Below, piece by piece: positions 1,647 through 10,258 of a stretch of 64,000 nt of DNA. The DNA is taken from assembly GCF_009707465.1 (NCBI RefSeq), contig NZ_CP046120.1, positions 3,253,501 through 3,317,500 on the forward strand, read 5' to 3'. A program made the position numbers and the translations under genes. Source of the stretch: Novosphingobium sp. Gsoil 351. GTDB taxonomy: Bacteria; Pseudomonadota; Alphaproteobacteria; Sphingomonadales; Sphingomonadaceae. The notes beneath the pieces were generated by a model. That model was not told the DNA's origin. It saw nothing but the letters and a program-made list of their open reading frames with translations, and made no database searches. Position 1 is the stretch's first letter. Every line of letters starts with the position of its first letter.

Positions 1647-2702
1647 ATGACGCGCTTCGGTTTCGTGCGCGACGCCATCACGTCGCAAAATTCCTGGCGG
1701 CGCGGCGCGATGGTCCTGCTTCTCGCCATGGGCACCGCGACCGCGGTGCGCTGGGGACTGGGCGTCGCCGCCGATCCAGTACCATTCGTCACCTACTTTC
1801 CCGCGGTCGTGCTGTGCACCCTGTTTGCGGGCTGGAGGTTTGGCCTTGCCAGTGTCCTGATCGCCGCCGCGATTGCCAACTGGGGCTTTCTCGACGAACC
1901 CGTCCATGCCCGATCGACCGTCCAAGCGGCAGTCATGACCGCCCTGTTCTTCTCGTCGTGCCTTCTCTTGGTGGCGACTACCGAAGCTCTGCGACAGACG
2001 CTCGCGCAAATGGCGGCCGCTCAGCGCCGATCTGAATTTCTAATGCGTGAGTTGCGCCACCGGGTTCGCAACACGCTGACGATTGTGCAGGCAATGGCGC
2101 AGCAATCTGCGCGAAGCGATCCAACTCAGTTCATCCCGGTGTTTTCCAAGCGCTTGTCCGCCCTGGCAAACGCTCATGATGTCATGTTCGATGACCCAGA
2201 GGGTGGATGCGATCTCGCTTCAATTATTGAGAAGGGCTGCGCCGCTTTCCACGAGGCGGGTAACTTCGCCATTGACGGGCCCAAGTGCTGCGTGCCTGAC
2301 GAGGTTTGTGTTCCTCTGTCGCTTGCTCTCCACGAGCTGTGCACGAACGCACTTAAATATGGCGCGCTTTCCGTGCCAGCCGGCCGGGTACACGTGAACT
2401 GGACTCCGCCTGTTGACGGCAAGACGACCCTGGTGTGGGAAGAAACCGGCGGCCCCGAGGTCAAGCCGCCCACACGCAGCGGGATGGGATCCGCATTGCT
2501 GTCTTCGCCCGAGATAGGAAAAGCGGATCTGCAGTATCATCCTCGTGGGGTTCGTTGCGTAATGATGCTCAAAGTGAAGGATCAAGCTCAGGCCCTGTCA
2601 CACAAGCCTTCACCGCCTCCTCGAGTTGAGCCATCCGATAGGGCTTCTTCAGGAACTTTGAGCCCGGGAGCAGCTCACCAAAAGATCCCGCGAATCCACT
2701 GA
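1647..2702 (+). CDS. Membrane-bound HWE/HisKA_2-type sensor histidine kinase
   Basis: The protein has 351 residues. Residues about 20-112 form a compact hydrophobic block of several membrane spans resembling the DUF4118 sensor region. Next comes a HisKA_2/HWE dimerisation motif RELRHRVRNTL with phospho-acceptor His138, then an N-box HELCTNALKYGAL and a short glycine-rich G-box (SGMGSALL). Kinases of this type often feed PhyR or single-domain receivers in alphaproteobacterial stress or light signalling. The start at 1647 is chosen for the GAGGGG Shine-Dalgarno seven bases upstream; the frame is open further upstream through the P450 scar. The last 44 codons overlap the convergent response-regulator gene, and the protein tail beyond about residue 312 looks non-conserved. 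Confidence 0.8.
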   Translation: MTRFGFVRDAITSQNSWRRGAMVLLLAMGTATAVRWGLGVAADPVPFVTYFPAVVLCTLFAGWRFGLASVLIAAAIANWGFLDEPVHARSTVQAAVMTALFFSSCLLLVATTEALRQTLAQMAAAQRRSEFLMRELRHRVRNTLTIVQAMAQQSARSDPTQFIPVFSKRLSALANAHDVMFDDPEGGCDLASIIEKGCAAFHEAGNFAIDGPKCCVPDEVCVPLSLALHELCTNALKYGALSVPAGRVHVNWTPPVDGKTTLVWEETGGPEVKPPTRSGMGSALLSSPEIGKADLQYHPRGVRCVMMLKVKDQAQALSHKPSPPPRVEPSDRASSGTLSPGAAHQKIPRIH

Positions 2703-2943
2703 CGTAGACAACACCAAGCTGCGGCAAAATTTGTCGGGCCTGGCTTGCCAAGGACCACCCGTCCAACTTGCCCGGCATCCGGATATCTGTGACGAGGACG
2801 TCAAAAGGCTCTCCCGCTGTGAGATGCGCAAAAGCGGCATCGCCGTTCTCGGCGACGACAACATCATGGCCTAGCTCGGCGAGGTCCTCTTCGGCCGCCA
2901 TGCGCACGAGCGCTTCATCCTCGACGAGCAGAACCCGTGCCAT
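2569..2943 (-). CDS. Single-domain response regulator (CheY-like receiver)
   Basis: The protein is 124 residues of receiver domain only. Visible are the acidic cluster VEDE (residues 7-10), phospho-acceptor Asp53 in VTDIRMPG, switch Ser82 in YVSGF and the conserved Lys100 in KKPY. There is no output domain, so it must act by protein contact or as a phosphate shuttle. Its ATG follows the stop of the upstream kinase directly (TAAATG), so the pair is surely co-translated and the kinase is the likely phosphodonor. Its 3' end overlaps the convergent HWE kinase gene by 134 bp, an unusually long coding overlap. Confidence 0.9.
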   Translation of the reverse strand: MARVLLVEDEALVRMAAEEDLAELGHDVVVAENGDAAFAHLTAGEPFDVLVTDIRMPGKLDGWSLASQARQILPQLGVVYVSGFAGSFGELLPGSKFLKKPYRMAQLEEAVKACVTGPELDPSL

Positions 2944-4098
2944 TTACCCTCCCACCGAAGATCCCGCTTGTGCGACCATCCGGGGCAGGAACAACCGTAC
3001 TCGCGTTCCTGTTCCAGGATCAGATTCGATCTTGAGCGAGCCGCCCAGCTGCTCGACCATTCCATATACCTGGCTGAGGCCCAAGCCCGTTCCTTGCCCG
3101 ACCGGCTTCGTCGTGAAGAAAGGCTCGGTCGCGCGTTCGAGCGTTTCTGCATCCATCCCCACACCGTTGTCCGATATGCGCAGCTCCACGCATTCGGGAT
3201 GCTCGTCTTCGTGCACCGAGATCTGCAGCAGGCCTCCATCGGGCATAGCATCACGAGCGTTGATCGCTAGGTTCAGCAATGCGTTTTGCAGCTGAGTTTG
3301 GTCTATCTCCACGTGTGGGTCATCGTCACTCGGGGCGAAGGAAATTTGCACATTTTGCCCAACTGCCTTCTCCATGAGGGGCGCTGCTTCCGCAACCAGT
3401 GCGTTTAACGAAACGGCGATCGGCGTGAGCGGTTGGCGCCTTGCGAAAGCGAGCAGTTGGTCGGTAAGCTCCGCAGCGCGCTGGGCACCGAGCGTTGCGT
3501 TGGCAAGCGCCCGCCGCACCGCGGGATCGTCTTTGCCGGCGATGCGCTCCGCGCGATCGAGGTTGGCCAGTACCACCTGAAGCAAGTTGTTGAAGTCGTG
3601 CGCGACGCCACCGGTAATCCGACCAATCACCTCAAGTTTTTGCGAATGACGTAGCATTTCGGCGGTCCGCTCCCGTTCGGCGGATTCCGCTACCAAGCGC
3701 TCGTTGACCGCACGCAGTTGAGCTGGAGAAGGTATCGCTACCAGCTTGGGTAGTAAGGGAATGAGGAGTGCCGCGGTGCCAATCGAGGCGAGCGCAGTGA
3801 TCATCTTGACGACGGCTTCGACGCCATAAGCCGGCACCCACAGGACATATATACTAAGCAGGTGAGTGGTCCCGCAGGCCAGGATAAAAGTGGCGAACAA
3901 ACCCAGGATCCAGCCGAACTCAATGTCTGGACGTGCCTTGAGGAGGCGCCACAGCACGAGAGGTATCGAGAAGTACGCCAGTGCGATGACAGCATCCGAG
4001 GCCACATGCGTCCAGATCAGAGACGGGTCCCATAACAAGCAATAGCCATGGGGTGGCAGACCTCGCATCCCAAGAAATCGGCTTGCCATCTCGAGCAT
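2944..4098 (-). CDS. Sensor histidine kinase with ethylene-receptor-like membrane domain
   Basis: The protein has 384 residues. Three hydrophobic segments (about 32-52, 62-85 and 95-120) precede a coiled coil, a HisKA H-box GGVAHDFNN (His167), and an HATPase domain with NLAINARDAM and DNGVGMD followed by GTGLGLS. The membrane domain matches the plant ETR1 ethylene-binding domain: Asp35, Tyr42, Ile45, Pro46, Cys75 and His79 stand in the same register as ETR1 Asp25, Tyr32, Ile35, Pro36, Cys65 and His69, where Cys and His bind Cu(I). The start is the ATG at 4098 with GGAG eight bases upstream; an in-frame TTG at 4134 is less likely. The stop abuts the receiver gene, forming a two-component pair. 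Confidence 0.85.
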   Translation of the reverse strand: MLEMASRFLGMRGLPPHGYCLLWDPSLIWTHVASDAVIALAYFSIPLVLWRLLKARPDIEFGWILGLFATFILACGTTHLLSIYVLWVPAYGVEAVVKMITALASIGTAALLIPLLPKLVAIPSPAQLRAVNERLVAESAERERTAEMLRHSQKLEVIGRITGGVAHDFNNLLQVVLANLDRAERIAGKDDPAVRRALANATLGAQRAAELTDQLLAFARRQPLTPIAVSLNALVAEAAPLMEKAVGQNVQISFAPSDDDPHVEIDQTQLQNALLNLAINARDAMPDGGLLQISVHEDEHPECVELRISDNGVGMDAETLERATEPFFTTKPVGQGTGLGLSQVYGMVEQLGGSLKIESDPGTGTRVRLFLPRMVAQAGSSVGG

Positions 4099-4463: not shown

Positions 4464-6629
4464 GTGCATCTCGATTTAATCTCGCCATTGCAGGAGGATG
4501 CCCGGGGAGCGGGTGCCGTGGGTTATTCAAGCCATCAGACGCTCGCTAGCGCTGCATTGGATGCAGTGCCGCAAATCGTTTGGACCACCGATCCGGCCGG
4601 CGTTTGCACTCTGTTGAACGAGCAGTGGTACACATTTACCGGCATTGACAGGTCAAACGACACCAGCAAATCGTGGACCGAAGCTGTCCACCCTGACGAC
4701 CTTGAACAGCTGCTCGCCGTTTGGTCCGACGCCCTTTCAAGCAAGTCGGATTTCGAGACTCAGTTCCGGCTGAGGGCCGCTGACGACAGCTACAAGTGGG
4801 TGCTCGCGCGGGCAAAGGCGCGATTGATCGATAACCAGGTCGTGGAATGGTGCGGCATATGCACCGATGTCGACGATCGTATCAGGGCACGGGAGGAAGC
4901 CAGCCGCAACGAAATCCTGTATCGCAGCATCGTCCAGGCAAGTGCCGACTGTATCAAGATCATCGACCTCCACGGGGCAATTCAGTTTATAAACGAACCC
5001 GGCGTTGACGCGTGCGAATTTGATCACGCGTCGGACGTGCTGGGGCGTCAGTGGAGTGAGCTCTGGCCCCCGGATTGCCGCGATATGATCCGGGCCGCAC
5101 TCGACGGTGCTGTCGCAGGCGAGAGTATCCGCTGTTCAGGATATTGTCCGACAGCCAAGGAAACGCCAAAATGGTGGGACGTTTCGGTGACGCCGGTGCG
5201 AAACAGGGCAGGGGATATAGTGCAGATCCTCGCGATCTCGCGCGACCTTACGCGGCAACGGCACGCCTCGGAGCAACTGCGATGGGCAAGCGAACACGAT
5301 GCGCTTACCGAATTGCCCAACCGGCGCTCTTTTGAGGGTCGCCTTCAGGCCGCCGTCCTCAGGGCAATGGAATCGGGCGGCACCGTTGGGCTGCTTTTGG
5401 TCGACCTGGATCACTTCAAGCACGTCAACGATTCGCTCGGCCATCTCGCCGGTGACCGCTTGCTCAAGATTCTCGCCCGCAGACTTCGTGACGCCCTTCG
5501 CGCCAGCGATTTTGTAGCACGGTTGGGCGGAGACGAATTCGCCGTGATCATCGAGCAGTGCGGGGTGGCCGATGAGCTGTGTAAGATCGGCGAGGCGATC
5601 CTTCAGCGGCTCAAAGACCGCGTGAGGATCGGAGAGCGGGAGATAAGCTCGGGGGCGAGCATCGGTGGCGCCGTTTTTCCTGGCGATGCAACCTCAGCCA
5701 ACGAGCTTCTCGCCCATGCCGATATAGCATTGTATTCGCTAAAGGAATCGGGTCGTGGCGGGACGAAGATGTTTCATCAACGCATGCGCGAACAGGCGCG
5801 GCTGGTGTCTTCGCAATTAAGTCTGGCGAGAAGCGCCATTACCCGCGAGACGGTCGACCCCTACTATCAGCAGAAGATCAACCTGGTCACCGGAGAGATC
5901 GCCGGCTTTGAGGCCTTGCTGCGCTGGCGACACGCAACCCAGGGTATCCAGCTTCCTCACACTGTGGCCGAAGCTTTCAAGGACTATGAACTCGCCACCT
6001 CGATCGGGGAGCACATGCAACACCGGGTGTTCGGTGACATCCGCGCCTGGCTCGAACACGATGTTCCAATTGGTGTCGTGGCGATCAACGCGGCGCCGGC
6101 AGAATTCCTGCGCGACGATTTTGCGGAGCGATTGCTTGATCGCCTAGGGCAATACAGTGTTGCGCCGCATCGCATCGAACTTGAGGTCACCGAGCATGTC
6201 TTCGTCGCGAGCGCGTCGAACTATGTAGAGCGCGCGCTGAAGCTGCTCTCACGCGCCGGGGTTCGAATAGCTCTAGATGATTTTGGCACCGGCTATTCGT
6301 CGTTGTCGCATCTGCGTGATTTTCCGGTCGATGTCGTCAAGATCGATCGTTCTTTTATCGAGCGCATGTCAGATGATCGCGAGGTGTGCGCCATTGTGAA
6401 GGCGGTTATCGATCTCGCGGCGAGCCTAAATCTCGAAGTGGTGGCCGAGGGTATCGAGACCGAGGAGCAGAGGCGTCAATTGGCGGACCTGGGCTGTCAG
6501 TATGGCCAGGGGTACCTTTTCGGCAGGGCGGTCCAGTCGAGCCGGGTGCGGCGCATCTTGAAGAATTCCGTACGCGATCGGCGGGACTGCGCGGCCCTGG
6601 CGCCGTCCCGCTTACTGAAGCGAGCTTGA
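4464..6629 (+). CDS. PAS-PAS-GGDEF-EAL cyclic-di-GMP turnover protein
   Basis: The protein has 721 residues. Two PAS/PAC modules (about 28-145 and 150-275) lead into a diguanylate cyclase domain with an intact GGDEF at 355-359. A phosphodiesterase domain follows with intact EAL (483-485), the DDFGTGYSS metal and loop-6 motif, VKIDRSFI and VVAEGIET. Both catalytic centres therefore look usable, although the usual Asn-Ser pair after EAL reads AINAAPAEF. No transmembrane segment is present, so it is probably cytosolic. The GTG at 4464 is taken as start; a second in-frame GTG at 4518, behind GGGGAG, is a real alternative. The BLUF gene follows after 6 bp, implying light input to c-di-GMP turnover. 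Confidence 0.9.
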   Translation: MHLDLISPLQEDARGAGAVGYSSHQTLASAALDAVPQIVWTTDPAGVCTLLNEQWYTFTGIDRSNDTSKSWTEAVHPDDLEQLLAVWSDALSSKSDFETQFRLRAADDSYKWVLARAKARLIDNQVVEWCGICTDVDDRIRAREEASRNEILYRSIVQASADCIKIIDLHGAIQFINEPGVDACEFDHASDVLGRQWSELWPPDCRDMIRAALDGAVAGESIRCSGYCPTAKETPKWWDVSVTPVRNRAGDIVQILAISRDLTRQRHASEQLRWASEHDALTELPNRRSFEGRLQAAVLRAMESGGTVGLLLVDLDHFKHVNDSLGHLAGDRLLKILARRLRDALRASDFVARLGGDEFAVIIEQCGVADELCKIGEAILQRLKDRVRIGEREISSGASIGGAVFPGDATSANELLAHADIALYSLKESGRGGTKMFHQRMREQARLVSSQLSLARSAITRETVDPYYQQKINLVTGEIAGFEALLRWRHATQGIQLPHTVAEAFKDYELATSIGEHMQHRVFGDIRAWLEHDVPIGVVAINAAPAEFLRDDFAERLLDRLGQYSVAPHRIELEVTEHVFVASASNYVERALKLLSRAGVRIALDDFGTGYSSLSHLRDFPVDVVKIDRSFIERMSDDREVCAIVKAVIDLAASLNLEVVAEGIETEEQRRQLADLGCQYGQGYLFGRAVQSSRVRRILKNSVRDRRDCAALAPSRLLKRA

Positions 6630-6635
6630 CCAGAC

Positions 6636-7088
6636 GTGTCAAACGTCAGCGAAATAGGCCTGACTTCGCTTCTTTACGTCAGCAGAAGCACTTTGGACGT
6701 GAATGGCGATCAGGCGAGCGTTGGCGAGATCGTCAGCGAGGCGATTGAGCGTAATAAACTACTCCTGGTCACGGGTGCCTTGTTCTACACCGGATTGCAT
6801 TTCGCGCAATTTCTTGAGGGACCGCGAAGGTCAGTCGAAAGCTTGATGGCCAGTATCTCGAAGGATACTCGCCATCACCATGTCACGGTTGTCGCGCACA
6901 AGCAGGTCCCGCGTCGCAGGTTCCCTGAGTGGGCGATGGCCTACGCTGGTTCGAACCCATTCCTCGATCGTCAGATGAAGGCATTGCTTAGCCCTCTCAC
7001 CGCAGAGCCCGAACGCTGCAGATTGATGTCGGAGCTCGGGGAGGATGCGGAACGACGGCTCGGCGCCGCGGCATTACAAGGGCGTTGA
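6636..7088 (+). CDS. BLUF-domain blue-light photoreceptor protein
   Basis: The protein has 150 residues; the first 105 form a BLUF domain that binds FAD. Tyr14 (in LLYVSRS), Asn40 and Gln58 (in HFAQFLEGP) correspond to the Tyr/Asn/Gln triad around the flavin, with a two-residue insertion between Tyr and Gln relative to AppA. FAQFLEGP followed by VESLMASISKDTRHH is typical of the family. The remaining 45 residues are a short alpha-helical tail with no output domain. Translation starts at a GTG only 6 bp after the GGDEF-EAL stop. In known cases BLUF proteins control EAL enzymes in fused or separate form; here regulation of the adjacent enzyme is inferred. Confidence 0.9.
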   Translation: MSNVSEIGLTSLLYVSRSTLDVNGDQASVGEIVSEAIERNKLLLVTGALFYTGLHFAQFLEGPRRSVESLMASISKDTRHHHVTVVAHKQVPRRRFPEWAMAYAGSNPFLDRQMKALLSPLTAEPERCRLMSELGEDAERRLGAAALQGR

Positions 7089-9291: not shown

Positions 9292-9675
9292 TCATGCCGC
9301 CATGGCTGGCAACCTGATGATGGTGTTATTGCTTAATCCCAAGGCGCCTTCCAGCATTATGTAGCGGCAACGCTGAACGGCCCACTCGTCATTCTGTTCG
9401 AGCAGGATCGCGCCGACGAGACGGGTTATGGCCTCCTCGTTGGGGAAGATGCCGACGACATCGGTGCGCCGCTTGATTTCGCCATTGAGGCGCTCAATGG
9501 GATTGTTGGAGTGCAGCTTGGTGCGATGCTGCGCGGGGAAGGTCATGTAGGCCAGCACATCGTCCTCGGCGCTGTCCATCAGGGCAGCCAGCTTGGGCAC
9601 GGTCGGCCTGAGCTGATCAGCCACACTGCGCTGCTGGGCCTTGGCGGTCTCGGGTGTTTCCTGGGCGAAGGCGGT
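9292..9675 (-). mobile_element. IS256-family transposase C-terminal remnant
   Basis: About 127 codons match the C-terminal part of a mutator-type (IS256) transposase. Visible are the region after the second catalytic Asp (ETPETAKAQQRSVADQLRP), then the segment HSNNPIERLNGEIKRRTDVVGIFPNEEA containing the catalytic Glu, and the tail NDEWAVQRCRYIMLE. The N-terminal two thirds, with the first two acidic residues, are missing; upstream sequence in this frame is unrelated. The element is therefore dead and marks an old insertion followed by deletion. The surrounding 580 bp contain few genes, consistent with a decayed site. Confidence 0.8.
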
Positions 9676-10258
9676 GGGAACGCGTCCTCGAAAGTCCGCT
9701 GCGTCACTGAGTTGAACGACTATCGAACACTGCGGCGTCGCAGTCGTCGCGCACGATGGCATGGGTCACGCCGCTACGTCTGGAATAGCCCGGCAAGTCA
9801 CGGCTGATAGTTTCCAAAGCCGCACCTAAGTCGAATATTTCCATAGTCGAGAGGGTCCGTTCAACCTTCATCCACTCTATTCGATAGCTCACGGTCATCG
9901 GATTCCTCGCCCACAGACTTAGACGCGCGGAAGCACGACGGGTTCCACGCGATAGGCCCAGGGCCGAGTACAAGTGCTTCGAATCGAAGCCAGCGAGCGT
10001 ATCTCACTCCTAATCTTGCATCTCGCATGGTTCGGCCAGCATCGCTCAGTGTCCCAGGAGTGATCTACCCGCACACCTCCGAAATCGCCCCGGTCTTTCT
10101 TTGCTGGGGAACCTGACCGACGCTCGTGCGTCCAGCAAGTGTTCGACCTCTGCCGCGGTTGAACTGTCCGGCCTAACGTCGCTGTCTGGCCGGCGCTTGC
10201 GACGGCGGCTGAGGTTCGCGAAACACCTCAGCCGCTTTCGCATGTGGTGGCAAGACCG
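9676..10258. other. Gene-poor stretch beside the IS remnant
   Basis: No protein family is recognisable. A leftward frame at about 9704-9871 gives a 55-residue peptide that I do not trust. An EcfG-like promoter element lies at 10108-10132 upstream of a small rightward gene. Confidence 0.35.
10108..10132 (+). promoter_or_regulatory. Candidate EcfG-type (general stress sigma) promoter
   Basis: GGAAC, a 16-base spacer and CGTC match the alphaproteobacterial EcfG promoter (GGAAC, 16-17 bases, CGTT) with one mismatch. The small 54-residue gene starts about 127 bp downstream. This is pattern matching only. Confidence 0.35.

Follow-up and report, generated by a model that had tools for sequence, protein, structure and literature searches.

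Is a histidine kinase of a sphingomonad an ethylene receptor of the kind known from plants? The question is raised by a minus-strand reading frame in Novosphingobium sp. Gsoil 351, within a stretch of 64,000 nucleotides (hereafter the window) from the host genome's single 3.8-Mb contig.

A sensor kinase with the ethylene-site residues of ETR1

The first-pass annotation had set D35, Y42, I45, P46, C75 and H79 of this kinase at the spacing of the ETR1 ethylene site, and translation of the frame, which is open throughout, places them exactly as claimed. Its further description of the copper signature as complete is right in that all residues are present, although it named six positions and missed a seventh, I72, the counterpart of ETR1 Ile62. 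All seven ETR1 ethylene-binding positions are thereby found in the window kinase (D35, Y42, I45, P46, I72, C75 and H79), with Y42 matching Tyr32, which we take to be an ethylene-site position of ETR1. A profile search could still have placed the domain in an unrelated family, but the sole Pfam family matched within residues 27-121 is ETR1_N (PF25487; 119.3 bits, E 8.6e-35). Since the cut-off of this model is 27 bits and it has no match in 14 control genomes, chance is ruled out. A kinase core follows the sensor, as had been stated, and is intact: H167 lies within an HDFNN box and HATPase_c scores 84.2 bits, while HisKA, at 25.6 bits for residues 160-222, falls slightly below its cut-off of 26.9. 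The Pfam search found neither a PAS nor a GAF domain in the protein.

Table 1. Coordinates in the window of the receptor kinase, its parts and the adjoining receiver gene
Feature	Position	Strand	Basis
ETR1_N sensor histidine kinase, 384 aa	2944..4098	-	ORF translation and Pfam
Alternative in-frame TTG start of the kinase ORF	4134	-	396 aa product
N-terminal P-H-G-Y-C-L-L-W motif, codons 16-23, outside the Pfam match	4030..4053	-	Conservation counts
ETR1_N domain, codons 27-121	3736..4020	-	Pfam 119.3 bits; AlphaFold2 model
C-G-T-T-H, codons 75-79; C75 and H79 are predicted Cu(I) ligands	3862..3876	-	Translation
HisKA, codons 160-222, phospho-acceptor H167	3433..3621	-	Pfam 25.6 bits
HATPase_c, codons 266-373	2980..3303	-	Pfam 84.2 bits
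GGGAGGG, likely ribosome-binding site of the receiver gene, within the kinase 3' end	2947..2953	-	Read from sequence; putative
Single-domain response regulator, 124 aa, phospho-acceptor D53	2569..2943	-	Pfam Response_reg 51.5 bits

An AlphaFold2 model of the kinase, built from 62 sequences (mean pLDDT 89.5, pTM 0.56), has three predicted transmembrane helices at 25-55, 62-85 and 91-121, presumably inserted in the membrane, and a long helix (125-186) that runs from the third of these into the kinase. The model returns 345 fold matches in the PDB at E 0.001, of which the best 50 are all histidine kinases or complexes thereof; the sensor domain has no relative by sequence among solved structures. 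For the kinase core, the solved structure nearest in sequence is CckA (5idj), which also ranks second among the fold matches, but CckA-type HisKA kinases carry a different sensor, and the receiver in the window is a separate gene.

Comparison with known receptors and proposed function

Seven residues are required for ethylene binding in ETR1 (PMC11819568, PMC6682694), and the positions named there and elsewhere include I35, P36, I62, C65 and H69 (PMC6586836) and D25 and C65 (PMC11819568). The closest characterised relative found is AzoEtr1 of Azospirillum brasilense Sp7, whose sequence we took from plasmid record NZ_CP012915.1 (L108). Expressed in Pichia, residues 1-130 of AzoEtr1 bind ethylene saturably, and little or no binding is left in disruptants (PMC11819568). 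Its domain aligns with that of the window kinase without gaps at 45.6% identity (H8), such that D35, C75, H79 and K98 share identical numbers, and both proteins have an HGxC motif and a HisKA/HATPase core. In both cases a single-domain receiver gene lies directly downstream with stop and start touching, the AzoEtr1 stop being overlapped by the start of AzoRRetr1 (PMC11819568). The two differ in that AzoEtr1 has a PAS domain and 525 residues and is encoded on plasmid ABSP7_p1, whereas the window kinase has 384 residues, no PAS domain and a place in the 3.8-Mb contig.

SynEtr1 (slr1212) of Synechocystis, compared by description, is a bacterial ethylene-binding receptor that acts via a histidine kinase and a response regulator and senses light as well (PMC6682694, PMC11819568). 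Plant receptors stand further off: they signal mainly without histidine-kinase activity (PMC11819568), and ETR1 carries a GAF domain (PMC6586836) and forms dimers linked by disulfides through N-terminal Cys4 and Cys6 (PMC2799528), whereas the window kinase has no GAF domain and no such Cys pair, C20 being the single Cys ahead of D35.

Because domain, numbering and gene pairing match those of AzoEtr1 and its receiver, the window receptor belongs to an already known bacterial family and is not a novel type of system. AzoEtr1 went unmentioned in the first-pass annotation, and this proteobacterial ethylene binder makes the reading proposed there both stronger and less novel. By homology, this bacterial ETR1_N protein is probably a membrane-bound receptor for ethylene and most likely depends on Cu(I). 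In the mechanism that we infer, the three transmembrane helices would hold Cu(I) via C75 and H79, with D35, Y42, I45, P46 and I72 assisting, and ethylene would bind this copper. The signal would travel along the long helix after TM3 into the kinase core, alter autophosphorylation of H167 and phosphotransfer to D53 of the co-translated receiver, and the single receiver would then act through a partner protein. As to direction, ethylene would lower kinase activity; such an effect is reported for ETR1 and, by indirect evidence, for SynEtr1 (PMC11819568). The output may fall on biofilm or attachment; Azospirillum and Synechocystis are reported to change their biofilm formation in response to ethylene (PMC11819568).

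Conservation of the ethylene site and of an N-terminal motif

All seven ethylene residues are kept in 85 of the 107 Pseudomonadota loci found by the Pfam profile, the Cys ligand in 100/107 and the His ligand in 103/107. With 22 loci departing from the seven, and with the clade having Arg in place of H79 that is described below, family membership alone is no proof of ethylene binding. Upstream of the Pfam match these loci share a further motif, P-H-G-x-C-x-x-W (P16 in 95/106, H17 in 96/106, G18 in 99/107, C20 in 98/105 and W23 in 95/104), whose conservation in bacteria is comparable to that of the copper ligands. The window and all 23 host-genus loci have the seven residues and the H17/C20 pair intact. 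Cyanobacteria show HGxC in 82/82 domains from the best 80 loci, a figure that is biased because the scan used two patterns and PHGxC was among them.

The plant side looks different. Querying with the N-terminus of plant ETR1, among candidates of similar short length and hence in a partial view, gave 58 matches, of which four (P0171-P0174) have HGxC and 54 lack it; one of the four, P0172, is from Exilibacterium, a bacterium, and none of the plant-named matches has the motif. In 32 of the 54, the stretch of at most 35 residues that closes with the D25 position contains two or more Cys; the remainder have one Cys or none, some being fragments lacking the N-terminus and some EIN4-like. Most of the plant-type matches that cover the seven positions have the same residues there. 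Cyanobacterial receptors have one Cys in this region, which may replace the plant disulfide pair functionally (PMC6682694); this remark leaves the conserved His next to it unexplained. P0171-P0174 (133-145 aa), along with L054, L058 and L062, are short ETR1_N proteins without a kinase in the same frame.

In a second genus of the same class, sampled as its 28 best matches and as 38 low-scoring loci picked by hand from the list, Arg stands at position 79 in 36 of the 38 low-scoring loci fetched; C75 is kept in 30 of these 36, and 25 of the 30 have H17 and C20. Within this genus is a clade of DFTAVCR type (L222-L226, L228-L251, L258 and L259) with Arg at the His69 position and changed Tyr32 and Pro36, which keeps Cys65 in 30/31 and HGxC in most; judged from its residues, its ligand is likely to be altered.

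In the first 107 loci, 98 copies have C75 and H79, and 93 of these also have H17 and C20; of the nine other copies, eight lack the pair. An association with loss of both copper ligands was considered and fails for H79, as shown by the 25 of 30 second-genus copies with C75 and R79 that keep HGxC. Across 175 Pfam-found domains the pair is missing in 14/15 without C75 and present in 148/160 with C75, counts that represent few independent events because the copies are related and were in part picked for low scores. At least three of the exceptions (L052, L074 and L227), which remain in the counts, have an N-terminus that is truncated in the frame as fetched. As far as these alignments go, loss of HGxC is linked to C75 only. 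We tentatively suggest, while thinking it on the whole rather unlikely, that the periplasm-facing P-H-G-x-C-x-x-W of bacterial receptors is a second functional site, replaced in plants, that would take up periplasmic Cu(I) or redox-gate the copper site before C75 and H79 hold the copper.

The same motif bears on what the sensor perceives. A sensor with the same fold and Cu(I) site might respond physiologically to periplasmic copper, to redox state or to another copper-binding gas such as CO, and not to ethylene. This would fit an H17/C20 pair that is conserved to such a degree and that, by helix parity, would face the periplasm, and it would fit the second-genus Arg79 copies, whose frequent retention of C75 and HGxC implies that the domain is seemingly used without a full ethylene site. 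Against this, the window copy retains all seven ethylene residues, and AzoEtr1 and SynEtr1 bind ethylene (PMC11819568). We regard a signal other than ethylene as unlikely and retain the ethylene receptor as the preferred reading.

The probable partner receiver and the neighbouring genes

A co-translated receiver had also been proposed, and the gene arrangement supports this: the kinase stop TAA (2944-2946) abuts the receiver ATG (2943-2941) with 0 nt between, and GGGAGGG lies ahead of the ATG. The receiver has D53 and K99/K100. In 14 of the 23 host-genus receptor loci, a receiver on the same strand adjoins the end of the kinase. Five others encode long proteins, in four of which a REC domain was found within the fetched stretch; in three the receiver lies on the opposite strand, and the fetched stretch of the remaining one, L023, shows an ETR1_N-HWE kinase and no receiver. 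The 20 larger regions comprise 15 same-strand pairs, three with an opposite-strand receiver and two of the long type. None of the nine further window proteins examined holds its place across these 20 regions, so that among the genes tested no conserved neighbourhood extends past kinase and receiver. A TonB-receptor match (26-27%) occurs in five of the 20, at differing placement. The domain, its residues, the intact motifs of kinase and receiver and the conserved pairing of their genes are established.

It is conceivable that the adjoining receiver is not cognate and that the kinase acts via another regulator. The three host-genus loci with an opposite-strand receiver instead, and L023, would agree with this, as would the likeness of the receiver to the CpdR and CckA receivers, which scores below their cut-offs and lies in a crowded family. 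But the genes abut with a likely ribosome-binding site, the pair is kept in 15/20 regions while the other tested neighbours change, and in the hybrid form described below kinase and REC are a single protein. A separate regulator is accordingly improbable in our estimation, and we continue to read the receiver as the partner of the kinase.

Other features of the window are recorded here for completeness. A PAS-PAS-GGDEF-EAL gene (4464-6629, +) is divergent from the kinase, 365 nt from its start, a placement that could be chance. A protein with a BLUF blue-light domain is encoded at 6636-7088, 6 nt past this gene, which suggests a light and c-di-GMP unit adjoining the receptor. An HWE kinase ORF on the plus strand, with its end at 2702, shares 134 nt (2569-2702) with the receiver gene, the two meeting tail to tail. 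A Mutator-family transposase is matched by a short ORF at 9292-9762, but solely in its C-terminal portion (positions 267-377 of the 379-position profile).

Distribution of the family

Many proteobacteria have proteins with ethylene-binding domains and varied outputs (PMC7700396). The first-pass annotation, which placed ethylene-receptor-like proteins in cyanobacteria and 'sporadically elsewhere', understated their spread. By the Pfam profile, the ETR1_N domain occurs in 23 of 195 host-genus genomes, in 30/298 genomes of a family sample, in 28/385 of a class sample and in 29/398 of a phylum sample (28 above the cut-off), and it is present in 123 of 175 genomes of the second genus. With residues 1-135 of the window kinase as a protein query, 2301 of 3165 candidates matched at E 1e-5. 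The domain is also found in 18 plasmid records. Conjugative plasmids are among them: p2 of Novosphingobium sp. ES2-1 (L110, 2013-7462) has receptor kinase and receiver genes next to a type II Cas9, and a Pseudanabaena plasmid carries a relative of the receptor. No phage relatives were found.

In a tree of 139 rows, the window groups with other host-genus members, apart from the cyanobacteria, and the HWE form branches off as a clade of its own; with few columns and a bootstrap that has not settled, the tree is used for those groupings alone. Rows drawn at random numbered 18 cyanobacterial, eight high-scoring and eight low-scoring, and fragmentary or very divergent rows (L052, L074, L076, L077, L079, L104, L105 and L106) were dropped. 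The HWE clade consists of ETR1_N fused to HWE-type histidine kinases in sphingomonads (L023, L043, L044, L051 and L112).

Degenerate ETR1_N copies in relatives (L075, L078, L252-L257) might suggest that the sensor is a relic serving as a mere membrane anchor for the kinase, but with an open kinase frame and with the seven residues and the N-terminal pair intact in the window and all 23 host-genus loci, this is highly improbable.

None of the literature matches listed, judged by title and start of the abstract and with partial coverage of the literature, reports ethylene receptors in sphingomonads or an operon joining a receptor to a GGDEF gene. Four candidate leads (PMC12172448, PMC3633832, PMC7344409 and PMC6515357) proved irrelevant in the parts available, the matches being reference titles or plant genes.

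A hybrid clade with a GGDEF-EAL gene

Five long-form receptors (L003, L004, L007, L009 and L014, in regions L279, L282, L283, L280 and L284, respectively) are close relatives that form one host-genus clade. The hybrid receptor, as checked in L279, comprises ETR1_N, HisKA, HATPase_c and Response_reg. In all five genomes it is directly followed on the same strand by an overlapping frame, delimited from stop to stop, that is related to the GGDEF-EAL protein of the window; Response_reg, PAS, GGDEF and EAL were found in each of the three such genes checked (L279, L280 and L282). In L282 the receptor stop and the start of the GGDEF-EAL gene overlap as ATGA. A search at 20 other loci, seven of them from the same family and the others farther removed, in stretches lying mainly downstream of the receptor, turned up no GGDEF-EAL relative close to it. 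A general link between receptor and c-di-GMP genes is rejected on this comparison, 5/5 in one clade versus 0/20 at other loci. Relatives of the divergent GGDEF-EAL gene of the window are found in four of the 20 larger regions (L265, L270, L279 and L280), of which only L279 and L280 belong to the hybrid clade. For this clade, hybrid receptor and GGDEF-EAL gene together are predicted to be an operon that would form an ethylene-to-c-di-GMP circuit.

A full ethylene-type receptor is now placed in sphingomonads, and its short form of 384 residues is convenient for biochemistry. In the HGxC motif, bacterial and plant-type receptors differ by a defined feature that can be mutated, and the arrangement of hybrid receptor and GGDEF-EAL gene in related genomes renders the step from ethylene to c-di-GMP testable.
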